Origin: Pontixanthobacter rizhaonensis
Lineage (GTDB): Bacteria; Pseudomonadota; Alphaproteobacteria; Sphingomonadales; Sphingomonadaceae
NCBI RefSeq assembly: GCF_012972675.1
Contig: NZ_JABCRE010000002.1
Location: forward strand, 1,291,001-1,355,000
Direction of reading: 5' to 3'
Length of the DNA: 64,000 nt
A program made the position numbers and the translations under genes. Under the pieces are notes generated by a model. It saw only the letters and a list, made by a program, of their open reading frames with translations. It searched no databases and had not been told where the DNA came from. Shown here piece by piece: positions 6,564 through 48,682 of this stretch (its first letter is position 1; each line of letters starts with the position of its first letter).

Positions 6564-7715
6564 TTACAGACCAAACATCTGGCTGAGGCGGCTTTTAGGC
6601 GGAATGGGGCGTTCTGCGGTCGCTACGTCAGTCCGTTCATCAGGCTTTGTCCAAGCAGCCTGGATTGCGCGTGATTGGGCGGCCCACTCTTCGCTGGCCA
6701 CATGATCAGCCACCCTTTTGGTAATGGGCCCAATCGCCGAGCTATCACAATCACGCGCAGGTTCGTCCAGATCAAAATCAGCGCGAATATAGCGGTCTTT
6801 CAAGATCATGCCCGCATAGCGTTCCGACATTTGTGCCGAAGCAGAGCTGGTGGCATTAATTAGCGGAACAGCGGGTATCGATTTACCTTCACAAGCATAG
6901 GGCTTCATCCACTGCCATGCCCCCCAGCACTCTGCGCGACCCAGTTCACCGCTATCGATACCGCCGTTGGACCTACCTGTGCCGAAAGACACCATCTCCA
7001 CATCATGATGATCGGCCCGGCAATATTGGTCGGCGTATTCGATAGCCGCCATCGAGGGGTTCGCAGCGAACAGGCCGCCATCCGCAAAATATCCGCAGTC
7101 TCCCGCCATCGGCAGCGATGGCTTAAATGGCGCGAATAATGTCGGGGTCGCCATAGAAGCCATCGCTGCGTCGGCCAGGAGCATTTCAGACAGCGGATCT
7201 TTACGGCTGCTGCCAATGAGAACAGGTTTCCATTGCGCAGCTGAACCGCGCGTTACTGCGCCCATTTGCAACGCCGCGACTGCTACTTGCGGGCCGGAGC
7301 GCGGCAATTCACTGAGGCGGGCGTTGCCGAACAAGCCGATCAATGCGTCTCGTAAATTTCGGGACAGGTATTTGGTTTGAAAGACCGATTTAATCGTCTC
7401 TCCATTGGCTGCCTTGTCGTATGTGGGCACGGTATCCAATGCGATTTGCTGTTCAAAGGAGAAAGGATTGCCCTCATTCCAATCGGTATCGGCCGGCTCG
7501 TAAATTTTGGCAGCATTGTTCGCAAAAAAATCTGCAATCGCGCCCGCTCTGATACCATAGGCCAGCGCCAAGGCGACTATTGCACCCGACGACGTTCCAA
7601 CAAACAGATCAGTCTTCTGTGCAAGATGGCCTTTTGGATCAGCATCTTTCAGAAGCAGCGCAGACACCAGGCTGCGCACGCCGCCGCTATCAAAAGACAT
7701 CACTCTAAATGGCAT
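6564..7715 (-). CDS. Patatin-like phospholipase family protein
   Basis: This 383-residue protein carries the patatin catalytic fold. It has the oxyanion-hole segment FDSGGVRS near residue 8 (usually DGGGxRG), the nucleophile elbow GTSSGAI near 40, and the aspartate of the Ser-Asp dyad in FADGGLFAANPS near 210. Such proteins hydrolyse acyl esters of phospholipids. No signal peptide is visible, so it is probably cytoplasmic or membrane-associated. The C-terminal third is poorly conserved. No nucleotide-cyclase or ubiquitin-like gene lies nearby, so there is no sign of a CBASS anti-phage unit; it may act in lipid storage or turnover. Confidence 0.88.
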   Translation of the reverse strand: MPFRVMSFDSGGVRSLVSALLLKDADPKGHLAQKTDLFVGTSSGAIVALALAYGIRAGAIADFFANNAAKIYEPADTDWNEGNPFSFEQQIALDTVPTYDKAANGETIKSVFQTKYLSRNLRDALIGLFGNARLSELPRSGPQVAVAALQMGAVTRGSAAQWKPVLIGSSRKDPLSEMLLADAAMASMATPTLFAPFKPSLPMAGDCGYFADGGLFAANPSMAAIEYADQYCRADHHDVEMVSFGTGRSNGGIDSGELGRAECWGAWQWMKPYACEGKSIPAVPLINATSSASAQMSERYAGMILKDRYIRADFDLDEPARDCDSSAIGPITKRVADHVASEEWAAQSRAIQAAWTKPDERTDVATAERPIPPKSRLSQMFGL

Positions 7716-42784: not shown

Positions 42785-44095
42785 ATGGTCCCGCGTTATG
42801 CCCGCCCCGCAATGTCCGCCATTTGGGAACCGGAGGCACGCTTTCGCATCTGGTTTGAAATCGAAGCCCATGCGACAGAAAAACTGGGCGAACTGGGTGT
42901 AGTGCCGAAAAGCGCTGCCAAGGCTTTGTGGGACTGGTGGGCGACAGAGCCCGAAATTGATGTTCCGGCAATCGATGCCATTGAAGCAGTCACTAAACAT
43001 GATGTGATCGCGTTTCTGACTTGGGTTGCAGAGCAAGTCGGTGACGAGGCCCGCTTTATGCACCAGGGCATGACGAGTTCAGATGTGCTCGATACAACTC
43101 TGGCGGTTCAGCTCGCCCGATCTGCGGATATTCTGCTGGAAGATTTGGATCTATTGCTAGCCGCGATCAAAAGGCGTGCGGAAGAACACAAATACACCCC
43201 GACAATCGGGCGTAGTCACGGTATCCACGCAGAGCCTGTGACGTTCGGCCTCAAACTCGCACAAGCCTATGCCGAATTTGACCGTTGCAAGACGCGCCTG
43301 ATCGCGGCCCGCAAAGAAATCGCAACCTGTGCAATTTCAGGTGCAGTCGGAACTTTCGCCAATATCGACCCCAGCGTTGAGGCCCATGTGGCCGACAAGC
43401 TCGGTTTGGAAATCGAGCCAATCTCTACTCAAGTCATTCCGCGTGACCGGCACGCCATGTTCTTCTCTGTCCTAGCAGTAATCGCTGGTTCTATTGAACG
43501 GGTTGCGGTCGAAGTTCGGCATTTGCAGCGTACTGAAGTGCTGGAAGCTGAAGAATATTTCTCGCCCGGTCAAAAAGGGTCGAGCGCGATGCCGCATAAG
43601 CGCAATCCGATCCTGACTGAAAACCTGACCGGCCAGGCGCGGATGATCCGCGGATATGCGATGCCAGCGCTTGAAAACGTGGCTTTGTGGCATGAGCGGG
43701 ATATTTCCCACTCATCGGTAGAGCGCTTCATTGGGCCAGATGCGACCATTACGCTCGACTTTGCGCTGGGCCGGTTGACAGGCGTGATCGATAAACTGCT
43801 GATCTATCCAGAGCGGATGCAGAGGAATATGGACCGCATGGGCGGCCTGATCCATTCGCAGCGCGTGCTGTTGGCACTGACTCAAGCAGGCGTGAGCCGC
43901 GAAGATGCATATCGTTTGGTACAGCGCAACGCGATGAAAGTGTGGGAATCGGATGGCGCCATGTCGCTGCTCGATCTGCTGAAAGCCGATAGCGAAGTCA
44001 CAGCGGCGCTTTCCGATGCAGAAATCGAAGCAAAGTTCGATCTCGATTATCATTACAAGCAGGTCGATCACATTTTTGACCGGGTATTTGGTTGA
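42785..44095 (+). CDS. purB: Adenylosuccinate lyase
   Basis: PurB cleaves SAICAR and adenylosuccinate in purine synthesis. The 436-residue protein shows the fumarase/aspartase fold with TSSDVLDTTLAVQL near residue 95, GRSHGIHAEPVTFG near 143 and the signature GQKGSSAMPHKRNPIL near 262. The start MVPRYARPAMSAIW is family-like, and CGGAG lies five bases upstream. It stands alone on the plus strand. Confidence 0.97.
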   Translation: MVPRYARPAMSAIWEPEARFRIWFEIEAHATEKLGELGVVPKSAAKALWDWWATEPEIDVPAIDAIEAVTKHDVIAFLTWVAEQVGDEARFMHQGMTSSDVLDTTLAVQLARSADILLEDLDLLLAAIKRRAEEHKYTPTIGRSHGIHAEPVTFGLKLAQAYAEFDRCKTRLIAARKEIATCAISGAVGTFANIDPSVEAHVADKLGLEIEPISTQVIPRDRHAMFFSVLAVIAGSIERVAVEVRHLQRTEVLEAEEYFSPGQKGSSAMPHKRNPILTENLTGQARMIRGYAMPALENVALWHERDISHSSVERFIGPDATITLDFALGRLTGVIDKLLIYPERMQRNMDRMGGLIHSQRVLLALTQAGVSREDAYRLVQRNAMKVWESDGAMSLLDLLKADSEVTAALSDAEIEAKFDLDYHYKQVDHIFDRVFG

Positions 44096-44215: not shown

Positions 44216-44566
44216 ATGCAGGTTATCCGCACCATCTTCTGGGTTTTGTTGTTCGTCTGCCTATTGGCATTTTCGTTCTTCAACTGGACACCAGTGGAAG
44301 TTACCATTTGGGACAATTTGATCGTCGAGACGAAGGTTCCGGCGCTGGTGATTATCGCCTTTCTGTTCGGCATGGTACCAACATGGCTGCTGCATCGCGG
44401 TACAAAATGGCGCTTGAACCGGCGGATCAAGACACTGGAAAACGCGGCTAAAGCAGCAGCAATAACTCCATCAGCCAGTGCCGCCGGTGTCGTCAGTTCC
44501 AAACCAGTGCCCACGCCTGCCGGTGATCTGTCATCAGTCAAACAATCCGAGCCCAAAACACTATGA
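44216..44566 (+). CDS. LapA-domain (DUF1049) membrane protein
   Basis: This 116-residue protein has two hydrophobic helices (IFWVLLFVCLLAFSFFNW and LVIIAFLFGMVPTWLLHR) around the short periplasmic loop TPVEVTIWDNLIVETKVP, the LapA/DUF1049 pattern. A cytoplasmic helix and low-complexity tail follow. In E. coli LapA works with LapB in lipopolysaccharide regulation; no LapB gene is adjacent here. Its stop overlaps the pyrF ATG (ATGA), so it leads the pyrF-bla-trp operon. Confidence 0.85.
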   Translation: MQVIRTIFWVLLFVCLLAFSFFNWTPVEVTIWDNLIVETKVPALVIIAFLFGMVPTWLLHRGTKWRLNRRIKTLENAAKAAAITPSASAAGVVSSKPVPTPAGDLSSVKQSEPKTL

Positions 44567-45237
44567 GCAACCCAGTCTATCTCGCGTTAGATGTGCCGCA
44601 ATTGGATGCCGCGAAAGCATTGGCCGAGAAAGTCAAAGGCCATGTGGGCGGGTTGAAATTGGGTCTCGAATTTTTCTGCGCCCACGGTTCGCATGGCGTT
44701 CATGAAATAGCCCAAGTTGGCTTGCCCATTTTCCTCGATCTGAAACTGCATGATATCCCGAACACGGTCGCTGGCGCGATGCAGGCGATCCATGTTCTGG
44801 AACCGGCTATTGTGACAGTGCACGCCAGCGGCGGCCGGGCCATGCTGGAAGATGCCAAAGCAGCGGCGGGGGAACACACCAAAGTCGTGGCAGTCACCAT
44901 GCTCACCAGCCTTGATGAGCGTGACCTTGCCAAACAAGGTATCGGCGGCACCCCGCATGATCACGTTATGCGCCTTACCGAATTGGCCCATGCATCCGGC
45001 ATCGATGGAATTGTCTGCTCTGGCCAAGAAGTCGGCGCGGCACACAAACAATGGAAAGACGGCTTCTTCGTGGTGCCCGGCCTGCGTCCCGCGGGTAGCG
45101 CAGTCGGAGATCAAAAGCGGGTGGTAACGCCGCGCAAAGCGCGTGATGATGGGGCCAGCGTGCTGGTAATCGGGCGGCCTATCAGCCGCGCCAGCGATCC
45201 AGCTCAAGCAGCCCGGGACATCGAAGCGACATTATGA
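44563..45237 (+). CDS. pyrF: Orotidine 5'-phosphate decarboxylase
   Basis: PyrF makes UMP from OMP. The 224-residue TIM-barrel enzyme has YLALDVPQLDAAKAL, the Lys-Asp catalytic network in FLDLKLHDIPNTVAGAM near residue 60, VTVHASGG, and VVTPRKARDDGASVLVIGRPI near the C-terminus. Its start overlaps the LapA-domain gene and its stop overlaps the beta-lactamase ATG by four bases. pyrF next to trpF is known in related bacteria; here a beta-lactamase lies between them. Confidence 0.96.
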   Translation: MSNPVYLALDVPQLDAAKALAEKVKGHVGGLKLGLEFFCAHGSHGVHEIAQVGLPIFLDLKLHDIPNTVAGAMQAIHVLEPAIVTVHASGGRAMLEDAKAAAGEHTKVVAVTMLTSLDERDLAKQGIGGTPHDHVMRLTELAHASGIDGIVCSGQEVGAAHKQWKDGFFVVPGLRPAGSAVGDQKRVVTPRKARDDGASVLVIGRPISRASDPAQAARDIEATL

Positions 45238-46034
45238 TGGCGCGTGTACTTCGGATTGGCGCAGCCGCGCTGGTGATGGCAGGCTGCGCGTCGTGCACGT
45301 ATAAAGAAATCCGCCCCTCTATCGCGCAGCAGGAAAGCGAGCGAACCAGCGCCCAGCAATTCGGGCCAGCATCTTTTGAAGAGCTTGCCCCCGGCGTGTG
45401 GCAGCACACAGCCTATCTTGATGTGCCTGGTTTTGGCGCGGTGCCCAGCAACGGACTGATTGTGGTGAATGGCGACACATCATTGCTGGTCGATACCGCA
45501 TGGACCAACCAGCAAACCGAAGCGATCATTGAATGGTCGCGCGCGGTACTCAACAAACCGATCAAAGCCGCTGTGGTGACGCATGCGCATCAGGACAAAA
45601 TGGGCGGTGTGGACGCGCTCCACGCGGCCGGCATAGACACCTTTGCGCTGGCGCTCAGTAATGAAATTGCACCCAGCAAAGGACTTACGCCTGCAAAAAA
45701 CGCCTTCAGTCTTAATGCAGGAGAATGGCATAGCGGAGCTGCCGCATCAGCGTTGGCCCCGCTGAAAATCTATTACCCGGGCGGCGGCCACACAATCGAC
45801 AATATTACCGTGGGTATAGCAGGTACGGACATCGCTTTTGGCGGCTGTCTGATAAAGGCATCGAGTGCCAAAACGCTGGGTAATCTCGCAGAAGCTGACC
45901 TTGATAATTACGCTTCTTCCGTCAGGAAATTTGCCAACGCCTTTCCAAACGCGACCAACATCGTCATGAGCCATTCCCAGCCCGAGGGGCGGGAGGCCAT
46001 CGCCAGGTCTTTGAAACTCGCTAAAGAGCTGTAA
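45234..46034 (+). CDS. NDM-like subclass B1 metallo-beta-lactamase
   Basis: This 266-residue protein aligns along its whole length, from memory, with NDM-1. B1 enzymes hydrolyse penicillins, cephalosporins and carbapenems with two zinc ions. All ligands are present: H117, H119 and D121 in VVTHAHQDKMGG, H186 in GGGHTIDN, C205 in FGGCLIK and H247 in VMSHSQP. The NDM-style loop YLDVPGFGAVPSNG, K208 and N217 (LGNL) also agree, as does EIRPSIAQQ near the N-terminus. A lipobox-like VMAGC (Cys18) suggests a lipoprotein, as NDM-1 is. The gene overlaps pyrF by four bases and trpF by one, with base composition like its neighbours. That points to a resident chromosomal gene. An alternative ATG at 45237 is one codon later. 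Confidence 0.95.
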   Translation: MMARVLRIGAAALVMAGCASCTYKEIRPSIAQQESERTSAQQFGPASFEELAPGVWQHTAYLDVPGFGAVPSNGLIVVNGDTSLLVDTAWTNQQTEAIIEWSRAVLNKPIKAAVVTHAHQDKMGGVDALHAAGIDTFALALSNEIAPSKGLTPAKNAFSLNAGEWHSGAAASALAPLKIYYPGGGHTIDNITVGIAGTDIAFGGCLIKASSAKTLGNLAEADLDNYASSVRKFANAFPNATNIVMSHSQPEGREAIARSLKLAKEL

Positions 46035-46678
46035 TGGCTTCCCCGATGACCACCCAGATCAAAATTTGCGGGATTTCGACCGCTGAAACGATGGCCGCTG
46101 CATTGGATGCGGGCGCGACTCATGTCGGCCTGGTCCATTTTGAACCCAGCCCGCGCCATGTCTCCTTGGCGGATGCGTCGCGATTGCGGGCGCTGGCCCG
46201 CGGTAGAGCGAAAGTCGTGCTGCTGCTGGTGAATGCAGAGATCGAACTGACTTCTGCCGCGATTGAAGCGATCAAGCCTGAAGTTATCCAGTTTCACGGG
46301 TCAGAAACGCCCGAATGGACAGGCTTGGTACGCGATAAGCTGAACATGGAAGTGTGGAAGGCGTTGGGCGTCAAAGATAAACCGACATTGGCCAAGTCAG
46401 AACGCTTTTTGGGGAAAGTCGATCGCTTGCTTTTCGATGCGCCTGCGACTGCCCTGCCCGGCGGGAATGGTACCAGTTTCGATTGGAGCCTGATGGCAGA
46501 TCATGAACACCAGATGCCGTGGGGACTTGCCGGCGGGCTAACACCCGACAATGTCGCCGATGCGATCCGCCAAACCGGCGCCCCTCTGGTCGATACATCC
46601 AGCGGCGTGGAAAGCGCGCCCGGTGTGAAAGATATTGGAAAGATTGCGGCTTTCTGTAATGCGGCCCGCAACGCCTGA
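46034..46678 (+). CDS. trpF: Phosphoribosylanthranilate isomerase
   Basis: TrpF catalyses the third step of tryptophan synthesis. The 214-residue TIM-barrel protein begins with IKICGISTAETMAAALDAGA. It shows VGLVHFEPSPRHVS, VIQFHGSETPEW near residue 83 and WGLAGGLTPDNVADAIRQ near 155, with SSGVESAPGVKD as the phosphate site. Its ATG shares one base with the stop of the beta-lactamase (TAATG). trpB follows after nine bases. Mobile NDM regions also contain a trpF downstream of the beta-lactamase, which makes this adjacency notable. Confidence 0.96.
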   Translation: MASPMTTQIKICGISTAETMAAALDAGATHVGLVHFEPSPRHVSLADASRLRALARGRAKVVLLLVNAEIELTSAAIEAIKPEVIQFHGSETPEWTGLVRDKLNMEVWKALGVKDKPTLAKSERFLGKVDRLLFDAPATALPGGNGTSFDWSLMADHEHQMPWGLAGGLTPDNVADAIRQTGAPLVDTSSGVESAPGVKDIGKIAAFCNAARNA

Positions 46679-46687
46679 GGATTATCG

Positions 46688-47905
46688 ATGAACAAGCCTT
46701 CCCCTAATTCCTTTAGAACCCAGCCCGATGAACGCGGCCATTTTGGTGATTATGGTGGCCGTTACGTTGCCGAAACACTGATGCCGCTGATCCTCGATCT
46801 GGAGAAAGAGTACCGCGCGGCGCAAGCTGATCCGGCTTACAAAGCGGAATTCGACGACCTGCTTGAGCATTATGTAGGCCGCCCTTCGCCGCTCTATCAT
46901 GCAGAACGCCTGACCGAAGCAGTCGGTGGCGCGCAAATCTGGTTCAAGCGGGACGAGCTCAACCATACCGGCGCGCATAAGATCAACAATTGCATCGGGC
47001 AGATTTTGCTCGCGATCCGCATGGGCAAAACGCGGATTATCGCGGAAACCGGTGCGGGCCAGCACGGCGTCGCCACTGCCACCGTATGCGCCCGATTTGG
47101 CCTGCCCTGCGTAATCTATATGGGCGCGACCGATGTTGCCCGGCAGCAGCCCAACGTGTTCCGCATGAAATTGCTCGGCGCAGAAGTTGTCCCCGTGACC
47201 AGCGGCGGCGCAACGCTGAAGGACGCGATGAATGAAGGCCTGCGCGATTGGGTCGCGAATGTGCATGACACATTCTACATCATCGGCACCGCGGCTGGCC
47301 CGCACCCCTACCCGGAAATGGTGCGCGATTTCCAAAGCGTGATCGGCACCGAAGCCCGCGCGCAAATGCTGGACCGCACGGGCCGTTTGCCCGATCTGCT
47401 GGTCGCTTGCATTGGCGGTGGTTCCAACGCGCTCGGCCTGTTCCACCCGTTTCTCGATGATGCCGATGTGAAAATGCTCGGCGTGGAAGCAGCGGGCCAC
47501 GGGCTGGACGGAGACGAACACGCCGCCAGCCTGACCGGCGGCGCACCCGGCGTTCTGCATGGCAACAAGACCTATCTGCTGCAAGATGAAGACGGCCAGA
47601 TTACCGATGGCCACTCGATCAGCGCAGGCCTGGATTATCCCGGCATCGGCCCCGAACACGCATGGCTGAAAGAAAGCGGCCGGGTGGACTATACTTCGGT
47701 TACCGATGACGAAGCACTGGAAGGCTTCCAACTCCTCTGCCGCACTGAAGGGATTATTCCTGCTTTGGAGCCCAGTCACGCGATCGCCGCTGTGGCAAAA
47801 GTCGCGAAGGAAATGCCCGATGATGCGATCATCTTGGCCAATTTGTGCGGGCGCGGTGACAAAGACATCTTCACTGTGGCTGAAGCGCTTGGGGTGGATA
47901 TCTAG
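46688..47905 (+). CDS. trpB: Tryptophan synthase beta chain
   Basis: TrpB condenses indole with serine using pyridoxal phosphate. The 405-residue protein has the PLP lysine in [14 protein letters not shown] near residue 95, the [13 protein letters not shown] segment and the phosphate-binding [11 protein letters not shown] near 240. GRGDKD near the end is also typical. Length and gene order trpF-trpB-trpA are standard. Confidence 0.97.
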
Positions 47906-47908
47906 AAT

Positions 47909-48682
47909 ATGACCCGTATCTCCAACGCCTTTTCCAAACCCGCTCTCGTCTGCTTCGTTACAGCTGGTGACGGGGACACGGCGGCCAATCTTGACGCTCT
48001 GATAGAGGGCGGCGCGGATGTTATTGAGCTCGGAATGCCCTTCACCGATCCGATGGCCGATGGCCCGGCTATTCAGGAGGCAAACCTGCGCGCGCTAGCC
48101 AAACGGACCACCACGGCTGATATTTTCGCTCTCGCTGCGCAATTCCGTCTGCGGCATCCCGATGTTCCGCTGATCCTGATGGGCTATGCCAATCCGATGA
48201 TCCGGCGCGGGCCGGAATGGTTTGCCGATGAATGCGCGAAAGCCGGTGTCGACGGCGTTATCTGCGTCGATATTCCGCCAGAGGAAGATCAAGCGCTCGG
48301 CCCTGCTCTGCGCGCCAAGGGCGTTGCGCCGATCCGGCTTGCCACGCCCACCACCGATGCCAAGCGCCTGCCGCAGGTTTTGGAAGGCTCGGACGGTTTC
48401 GTCTATTATGTCTCGGTCGCCGGAATTACCGGCAAGCAGCAAGCCGCCACCGCCTCTATCGAAGACGCCGTGGCCAAGCTGAAAGCCTCTACCGATCTGC
48501 CCATCGCGGTTGGCTTTGGTGTGCGCACGCCCGAACAGGCCAGCGCCATTGCCAAAGTGGCTGACGGTGTGGTGGTCGGATCCGCTCTTGTCGAATTGGT
48601 CGGCAAGCATGGCGCAAATGCTCCATCTGCGTTAAAGGAACTGACTTCGGCTCTCGCAAACGCGGTTCATTCCGCGCGCTAA
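47909..48682 (+). CDS. trpA: Tryptophan synthase alpha chain
   Basis: TrpA cleaves indole-3-glycerol phosphate and channels indole to TrpB. The 257-residue protein has the [19 protein letters not shown] motif near residue 35 (catalytic Glu and Asp), LMGYANPMI near 92, [11 protein letters not shown] and [12 protein letters not shown] near 200. It starts three bases after the trpB stop. The rest of the trp pathway (trpE, trpD, trpC) is not in the window. Confidence 0.97.

Follow-up and report, generated by a model that had tools for sequence, protein, structure and literature searches.

The source of NDM, the worldwide carbapenemase, is not settled in the literature, and the standing hypothesis places it in Xanthomonas (PMC8894482, available to us in part). 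NDM-1 is carried on Tn125-type plasmids and AFM-1 on ISCR29-type plasmids, and the gene order bla-ble-trpF is found both for NDM on A. lwoffii pNDM-Iz4b and for AFM on P. aeruginosa pPA30_1, the latter with trpF shortened to 186 codons. Excerpts of earlier papers report that the first six residues of NDM match aphA6 (PMC8894482) and that TrpF from the plasmid and TrpF from an Erythrobacter share 65% similarity (PMC3356367). Among chromosomal enzymes, ElBla2 of Erythrobacter litoralis HTCC 2594 hydrolyses meropenem and raised the MICs of imipenem and ertapenem for E. coli; the accessible portion of that paper calls its flanking genes conserved, does not name pyrF, trpF or ble, and draws no link to the NDM module (PMC5770381). 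Related literature, likewise available in part, comprises PMC10189940, PMC9984417, PMC5637372 and PMC5408368.

The window, by which we mean the whole 64,000-nucleotide stretch of Pontixanthobacter rizhaonensis DNA that was analysed, contains a gene for a subclass B1 metallo-beta-lactamase (bla) in the slot between pyrF and trpF (Table 1). Upstream of the slot lies purB, which adjoins it in many relatives too, and trpB, trpA, accD and folC follow downstream. The genes are tightly joined: the LapA-like reading frame overlaps pyrF by four bases, the TGA of pyrF, whose product ends in RDIEATL, shares four bases (ATGA) with the bla start codon, and bla overlaps trpF by a single base (TAATG). Both bla overlaps, like an unremarkable base composition, had been claimed from the letters alone and are borne out by the coordinates and by a bla GC content of 56.3%, compared with 58.5% for pyrF, 58.0% for trpF and 55.7% for the whole window. 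From the ATGA overlap we infer that translation of bla is probably coupled to that of pyrF. The gene is present once in the 2.79-Mb genome, on a contig of 1.64 Mb.

Table 1 Features in and around the pyrF-trpF slot of the window, with profile matches and model cut-offs.
Gene	Product and place	Position	Strand	Match (cut-off)
purB	adenylosuccinate lyase; slot flank	42785..44095	+	TIGR00928 492.9 bits (326)
LapA-like	small membrane protein, 5' of pyrF	44216..44566	+	Pfam LapA_dom 25.1 bits (28, slightly missed)
pyrF	orotidine-5'-phosphate decarboxylase; left wall of slot	44563..45237	+	NCBIfam PRK00230 239.9 bits (193)
bla	subclass B1 metallo-beta-lactamase, 266 aa; ATG start, TAA stop, frame intact	45234..46034	+	
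trpF	phosphoribosylanthranilate isomerase; right wall of slot	46034..46678	+	NCBIfam 254.6 bits (216)
trpB	tryptophan synthase beta	46688..47905	+	TIGR00263 633.8 bits (392)
trpA	tryptophan synthase alpha	47909..48682	+	TIGR00262 239.9 bits (102)

The window protein meets the NCBIfam subclass B1 equivalog NF033088 (216.2 bits, cut-off 200), and alignment with NDM-1 and AFM-1 agrees with the six zinc ligands (H117, H119, H186; D121, C205, H247) and the residues K208 and N217 listed in the sequence-only reading. Its by-eye estimate that well over half of the positions are shared with NDM-1 is matched by a measured identity of 58% (148/257). Filing the gene as NDM or as AFM was tried and rejected, the respective NCBIfam exception models giving 325.8 bits (blaNDM, cut-off 580) and 313.4 bits (blaAFM, cut-off 590). 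Its best solved-structure match is PDB 6v72, 'Beta-lactamase II', which we take to be ElBla2, and NDM entries come next. Residues 1-21 or so form a signal peptide or lipobox-like region, where a lipobox-like VMAGC had been noted; the cysteine of that motif, C18, is not the one that aligns with the cysteine of relatives such as G120, which is C21 (CASC-TYKEIRPS). Both lipoboxes look off consensus, the N-termini having been compared by eye without a predictor. The protein would be exported, and lipid anchoring is plausible, though inferred.

Like the window gene, ElBla2 is a chromosomal B1 enzyme with all six ligands and a place in the pyrF-trpF slot, that of G208, whose match coordinates fit the published gene position, from which we infer that ElBla2 is the G208 slot gene; it differs from the window protein in sequence (about 61% identity, via G208). 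NDM-1 shares with the window gene all ligands and a trpF downstream of bla, and differs in being mobile, in having ble between bla and trpF and in a bla GC content of 61.5%. AFM-1 (53% identity) resembles it in the ATGA overlap and in keeping a 3' end of pyrF type, and differs in mobility, in the presence of ble, in its shortened trpF and in a floR fragment upstream. By analogy with meropenem hydrolysis by ElBla2, we expect the window protein, probably a secreted hydrolase dependent on zinc, to cleave beta-lactams with two zinc ions, probably carbapenems included; this activity is inferred, not measured. It probably works like NDM, though it is not filed as one. The window gene is a fresh member of an already known enzyme class, and the point of interest is its address, together with ble and the pyrF scar described below.

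Searching 298 genomes of family f1, its own genome included, with the window protein at E <= 1e-20 gave B1 matches in 19, and in 17 of these, spread over five genera, bla lies between pyrF and trpF; the two exceptions (G210 and G083) are remote homologues sited elsewhere. The other slot proteins are 49-62% identical to the window protein and 49-57% to NDM. This shared position, with a gene tree that mostly follows the genera, supports the earlier proposal that bla is a resident chromosomal gene. The window gene belongs to the slot group both by sitting between pyrF and trpF and by falling inside the slot-gene clade (19 rows, 100/100). No chromosomal bla more than 58% identical to NDM-1 was found in the family, order and class genome searches, and outside f1 identity to NDM peaked at 43% in the order search and at 35% in the class search.

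A pyrF was found in 290 of the 298 genomes. As a census of the slot, 100 stretches 3' of pyrF were read, a non-random set drawn largely from the first pyrF matches listed, with short draft contigs left out and G226, G080, G148 and G260 added as known positives. In 99 of them trpF follows, and the remaining one (G240) ends at a contig end. Of the stretches, 17 contain bla in the slot, 13 contain ble (two of them with bla) and 72 contain neither, some of these 72 being empty and others filled with different cargo. The pyrF-trpF interval is a cargo hotspot. Ten proteins of 40 extracted were scanned for other cargo, which includes, in different genomes, GNAT acetyltransferases, a SIMPL protein, a sulfotransferase, an M17 peptidase, an HI0933-like flavoprotein and a GST, as well as a DUF4019-like lipoprotein slightly under its cut-off. 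The two genomes with both genes read pyrF-bla-ble-(divergent ORF)-trpF (G120, of the window's genus) and pyrF-ble-bla-trpF (G158); an uninterrupted pyrF-bla-ble-trpF was absent from the sampled genomes. Within f1, TrpF comes in two types at the same site, with about 50% identity between them, and both are found 3' of bla, which suggests allele replacement at the slot. In G259 the slot bla (L007/L107) has an open frame in which G replaces C205 and N replaces H247, so that the two ligands of the Zn2 site are lost, and a 13-codon 5' stub of ble lies directly 3' of it; this reads as a copy in decay or re-purposed.

The mixed cargo, and the one slot bla without Zn2 ligands, would also be compatible with a B1-fold hydrolase whose native job is something other than antibiotic resistance, in cell-wall or other metabolism. 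We regard this as unlikely for the window gene, given that its product keeps all zinc ligands as well as K208 and N217, that bleomycin-binding protein relatives share the slot, and that ElBla2 makes E. coli resistant to carbapenems (PMC5770381, in the part available).

Ble-MBL, the companion of NDM on plasmids, has matches in 20 of the 298 f1 genomes at 21 places, 14 inside the pyrF-trpF slot and seven elsewhere. Three slot homologues that were scanned reach 167-190 bits on the ble_MBL model, under its cut-off of 250. Outside f1 a match was found in one of 77 genomes (42%), with G120 recovered as positive control. The gene alone does not mark f1, because a published table, in the portion available, lists a relative in Brevundimonas at 64% (PMC3179503), which is absent from our trees, and because Tn5 BLMT stands at 57%. 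On plasmids, 195 records match Ble-MBL at 60-80%, the single one inspected being a cut-off BLMT beside aph(3')-IIa. In three genomes (G104, G103 and G014; L051, L057 and L068) the slot ble has next to it another Ble-like gene, which is only remotely similar (26-32% to Ble-MBL).

What the sequence-only reading had missed is that trpF, next to bla on the downstream side, also belongs to the module carried by NDM plasmids. On the plasmids both ble and trpF lie 3' of bla, so that each corresponds to a gene of the chromosomal slot or of its wall, and the NDM module is packed tightly, with gaps of three and four bases. DNA divergence between NDM and AFM is about 15% for bla as well as for trpF, and 10% for ble, and the break points of the two modules differ. 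This divergence and these break points fit separate captures from two donors, though one old capture is not excluded. The window's own lineage was considered as donor and set aside: the plasmid module genes have a GC content of 61-67%, compared with 55.7% for the window, and the window TrpF is only 49.5% identical to the plasmid TrpF and belongs to the other TrpF clade. On these comparisons the lineage does not look like the donor, and none was found among the sampled genomes.

Directly 5' of bla, the AFM plasmid reads GAG ATT GAG GCG ACA TTA TGA, which encodes E-I-E-A-T-L-stop; between this TGA and the blaAFM ATG there is the four-base overlap also present in the window, whose pyrF closes with GAC ATC GAA GCG ACA TTA TGA (identical at 18 of the 21 bases). 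An IEATL terminus is found for PyrF in 80 of the 100 f1 stretches and in none of 30 loci from order genomes outside f1 (36 genomes searched; one of the 30 loci has an internal stop). A degenerate I-E-A-T-L-TGA pattern matches once in the 14.8-kb AFM plasmid stretch, and none of 200 shuffles contained a match. Upstream, among the 30 floR matches listed of 2255, the similarity ends at position 6970 in 28 (H160-H187, 87-88% identity), and the scar starts at 6972; the last floR row (H188) ends earlier, at the end of its own record. The whole 1831-base stretch bearing the scar is matched at 99.9-100% by at least 24 AFM records. The scar is short, at 21 bases, and was first spotted by eye in the reading frames and then tested; because the pattern and IEATL tests were framed after it had been seen, their statistics are weakened, though position, frame and overlap agree. 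Searching both plasmid stretches, that of NDM and that of AFM, for pyrF sequence in general returned noise-level matches only. No pyrF-type end stands 5' of bla on the NDM plasmid L049, and the scar therefore speaks directly for AFM only.

In the MBL tree NDM and AFM pair (100/100) and lie inside the f1 slot clade (19 rows with them, 100/100), within a 15-row subset that lacks genera g59 and g80 (98/95). The tree groups by genus, except for g54 inside g3, and the five g1 rows group together (97/97). The phylogeny that the sequence-only reading had named as a possible refutation came out in its favour, NDM and AFM lying inside the slot family of the window gene. Its inference of an environmental reservoir closest to NDM holds for the entire f1 slot family and falls short for the window gene, which is not singled out as the nearest kin of NDM: the mobile AFM-1 reaches 84%, and the chromosomal G120 gene, at 57%, is level with the window gene. 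In AU tests on 32 MBL rows (eight of 40, long-branch or remote, having been removed beforehand), a position of NDM and AFM outside f1 was rejected (p-AU 0.021) and one outside the 13 inner f1 bla rows was not (p-AU 0.49). The exact sister is unresolved, and given the latter result it is g59 and g80 that carry the nesting. The protein sequences entered in the trees start up to three codons 5' of the matched start.

TrpF matches occurred in 186 of 196 order genomes, and the 48 best places are all in f1; outside f1 the best-scoring place is 51% identical, and none exceeds 53% among the places listed. In a tree of 43 rows the NDM and AFM TrpF group with five g37 rows (96/86). AU tests on the same 43 of 140 TrpF rows rejected a grouping with the five non-f1 rows (p-AU 0.0085) and did not reject a position outside the f1 type-II rows (p-AU 0.21). 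Among 14 genomes of g37, an NDM-like gene was found in none and ble in one, which tells against a simple account. In the Ble tree NDM and AFM stand nearest the slot ble of G158, of genus g3 (85/85). Their grouping with Tn5 BLMT and the non-f1 row was rejected (p-AU 0.011), as was a separation of all 21 f1 Ble rows from the four others (p-AU 0.012); the tree holds only two non-f1 rows, Tn5 BLMT and one more, and one of the two sits on a very long branch.

From the observed synteny, homology, tree placement and pyrF-like scar, we consider it very probable that the NDM and AFM modules were lifted from a pyrF-[bla-ble]-trpF slot of a related, unsampled family member, the window gene being a resident slot bla. 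In Erythrobacteraceae/Sphingomonadaceae the interval serves as a variable cargo site between pyrF and trpF that holds NDM/ElBla2-like B1 genes, carries ble in relatives and in two genomes bla and ble together. The blaNDM-ble-trpF and blaAFM-ble-trpF segments would have been taken from such a locus, with the AFM plasmids retaining what we interpret as the last codons of the donor pyrF.

The nearest genus differs by module gene, being unresolved for bla, g3 (through G158) for ble and g37 for trpF, and this could mean that bla, ble and trpF were joined separately and that their order is coincidental. Such piecemeal assembly is in our view highly unlikely: bla and ble share one slot of which trpF is the right wall, AFM adds the end of pyrF, the left wall, and the NDM plasmid genes are closely packed, while mixed affinities are to be expected if slot alleles recombine, both TrpF types being found 3' of bla.

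The published alternative, in which ISCR27 mobilised the blaNDM progenitor from Xanthomonas or a relative and the Erythrobacteraceae enzymes are mere cousins, draws on the groEL/groES genes of the NDM transposon, which resemble those of Xanthomonas/Pseudoxanthomonas; a plant-pathogen origin was argued from groEL (PMC3179503) and the hypothesis later restated (PMC8894482), both papers being available to us in part. This argument rests on groEL and not on the genes touching bla, of which bla and trpF, and less decisively ble, group with f1, and AFM keeps an f1-type pyrF end. On the NDM plasmid L049, GC3 is 91.8% in groES/groEL versus 75-78% in bla, ble and trpF, a contrast that gives the transposon a chimeric look, with at least two sources; cutA has 74.5%. 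A single Lysobacterales MAG was found, at 41% to the window protein, without a dedicated Xanthomonadales search and by a contig scan keyed to short peptides identical to those of the window protein, which misses distant kin. With that search lacking, our best reading is that the evidence from the genes touching bla runs contrary to the published hypothesis, and we hold a Xanthomonas source for bla to be most improbable. The reverse direction, in which plasmid NDM/AFM-type genes entered Erythrobacteraceae chromosomes, is in its favour consistent with a patchy slot content (bla in five of seven sampled genomes of the window's genus) but scarcely credible: the slot genes are as divergent from NDM as given above and sort mostly by genus, it is the AFM plasmid that carries a piece of pyrF and not the reverse, and the window bla overlaps both slot walls, which leaves no room for a mobile element.

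Returning to capture from the slot, we think it likely that the NDM and AFM modules had their chromosomal birthplace in the pyrF-trpF slot, that two donors near g37, 10-15% apart in DNA, gave rise to separate pyrF'-bla-ble-trpF captures, and that the NDM scar was lost as its 5' end was replaced; donor identity and capture mechanism are here inferred. Neither a link of the pyrF-trpF slot to NDM or AFM nor a prior statement of this address with ble and the pyrF scar was found in the open literature, among the papers listed and as far as they were accessible, subscription work being outside our scope. The Erythrobacter metallo-beta-lactamases EAM-1 and EVM-1, and BRP-MBL, are reportedly described in subscription papers, where the slot link may be printed. 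With a chromosomal address, a donor family and a scar in the sequence, the origin of NDM becomes a matter of surveying the f1 family for pyrF-bla-ble-trpF, and the slot may show what else stands ready for mobilisation.
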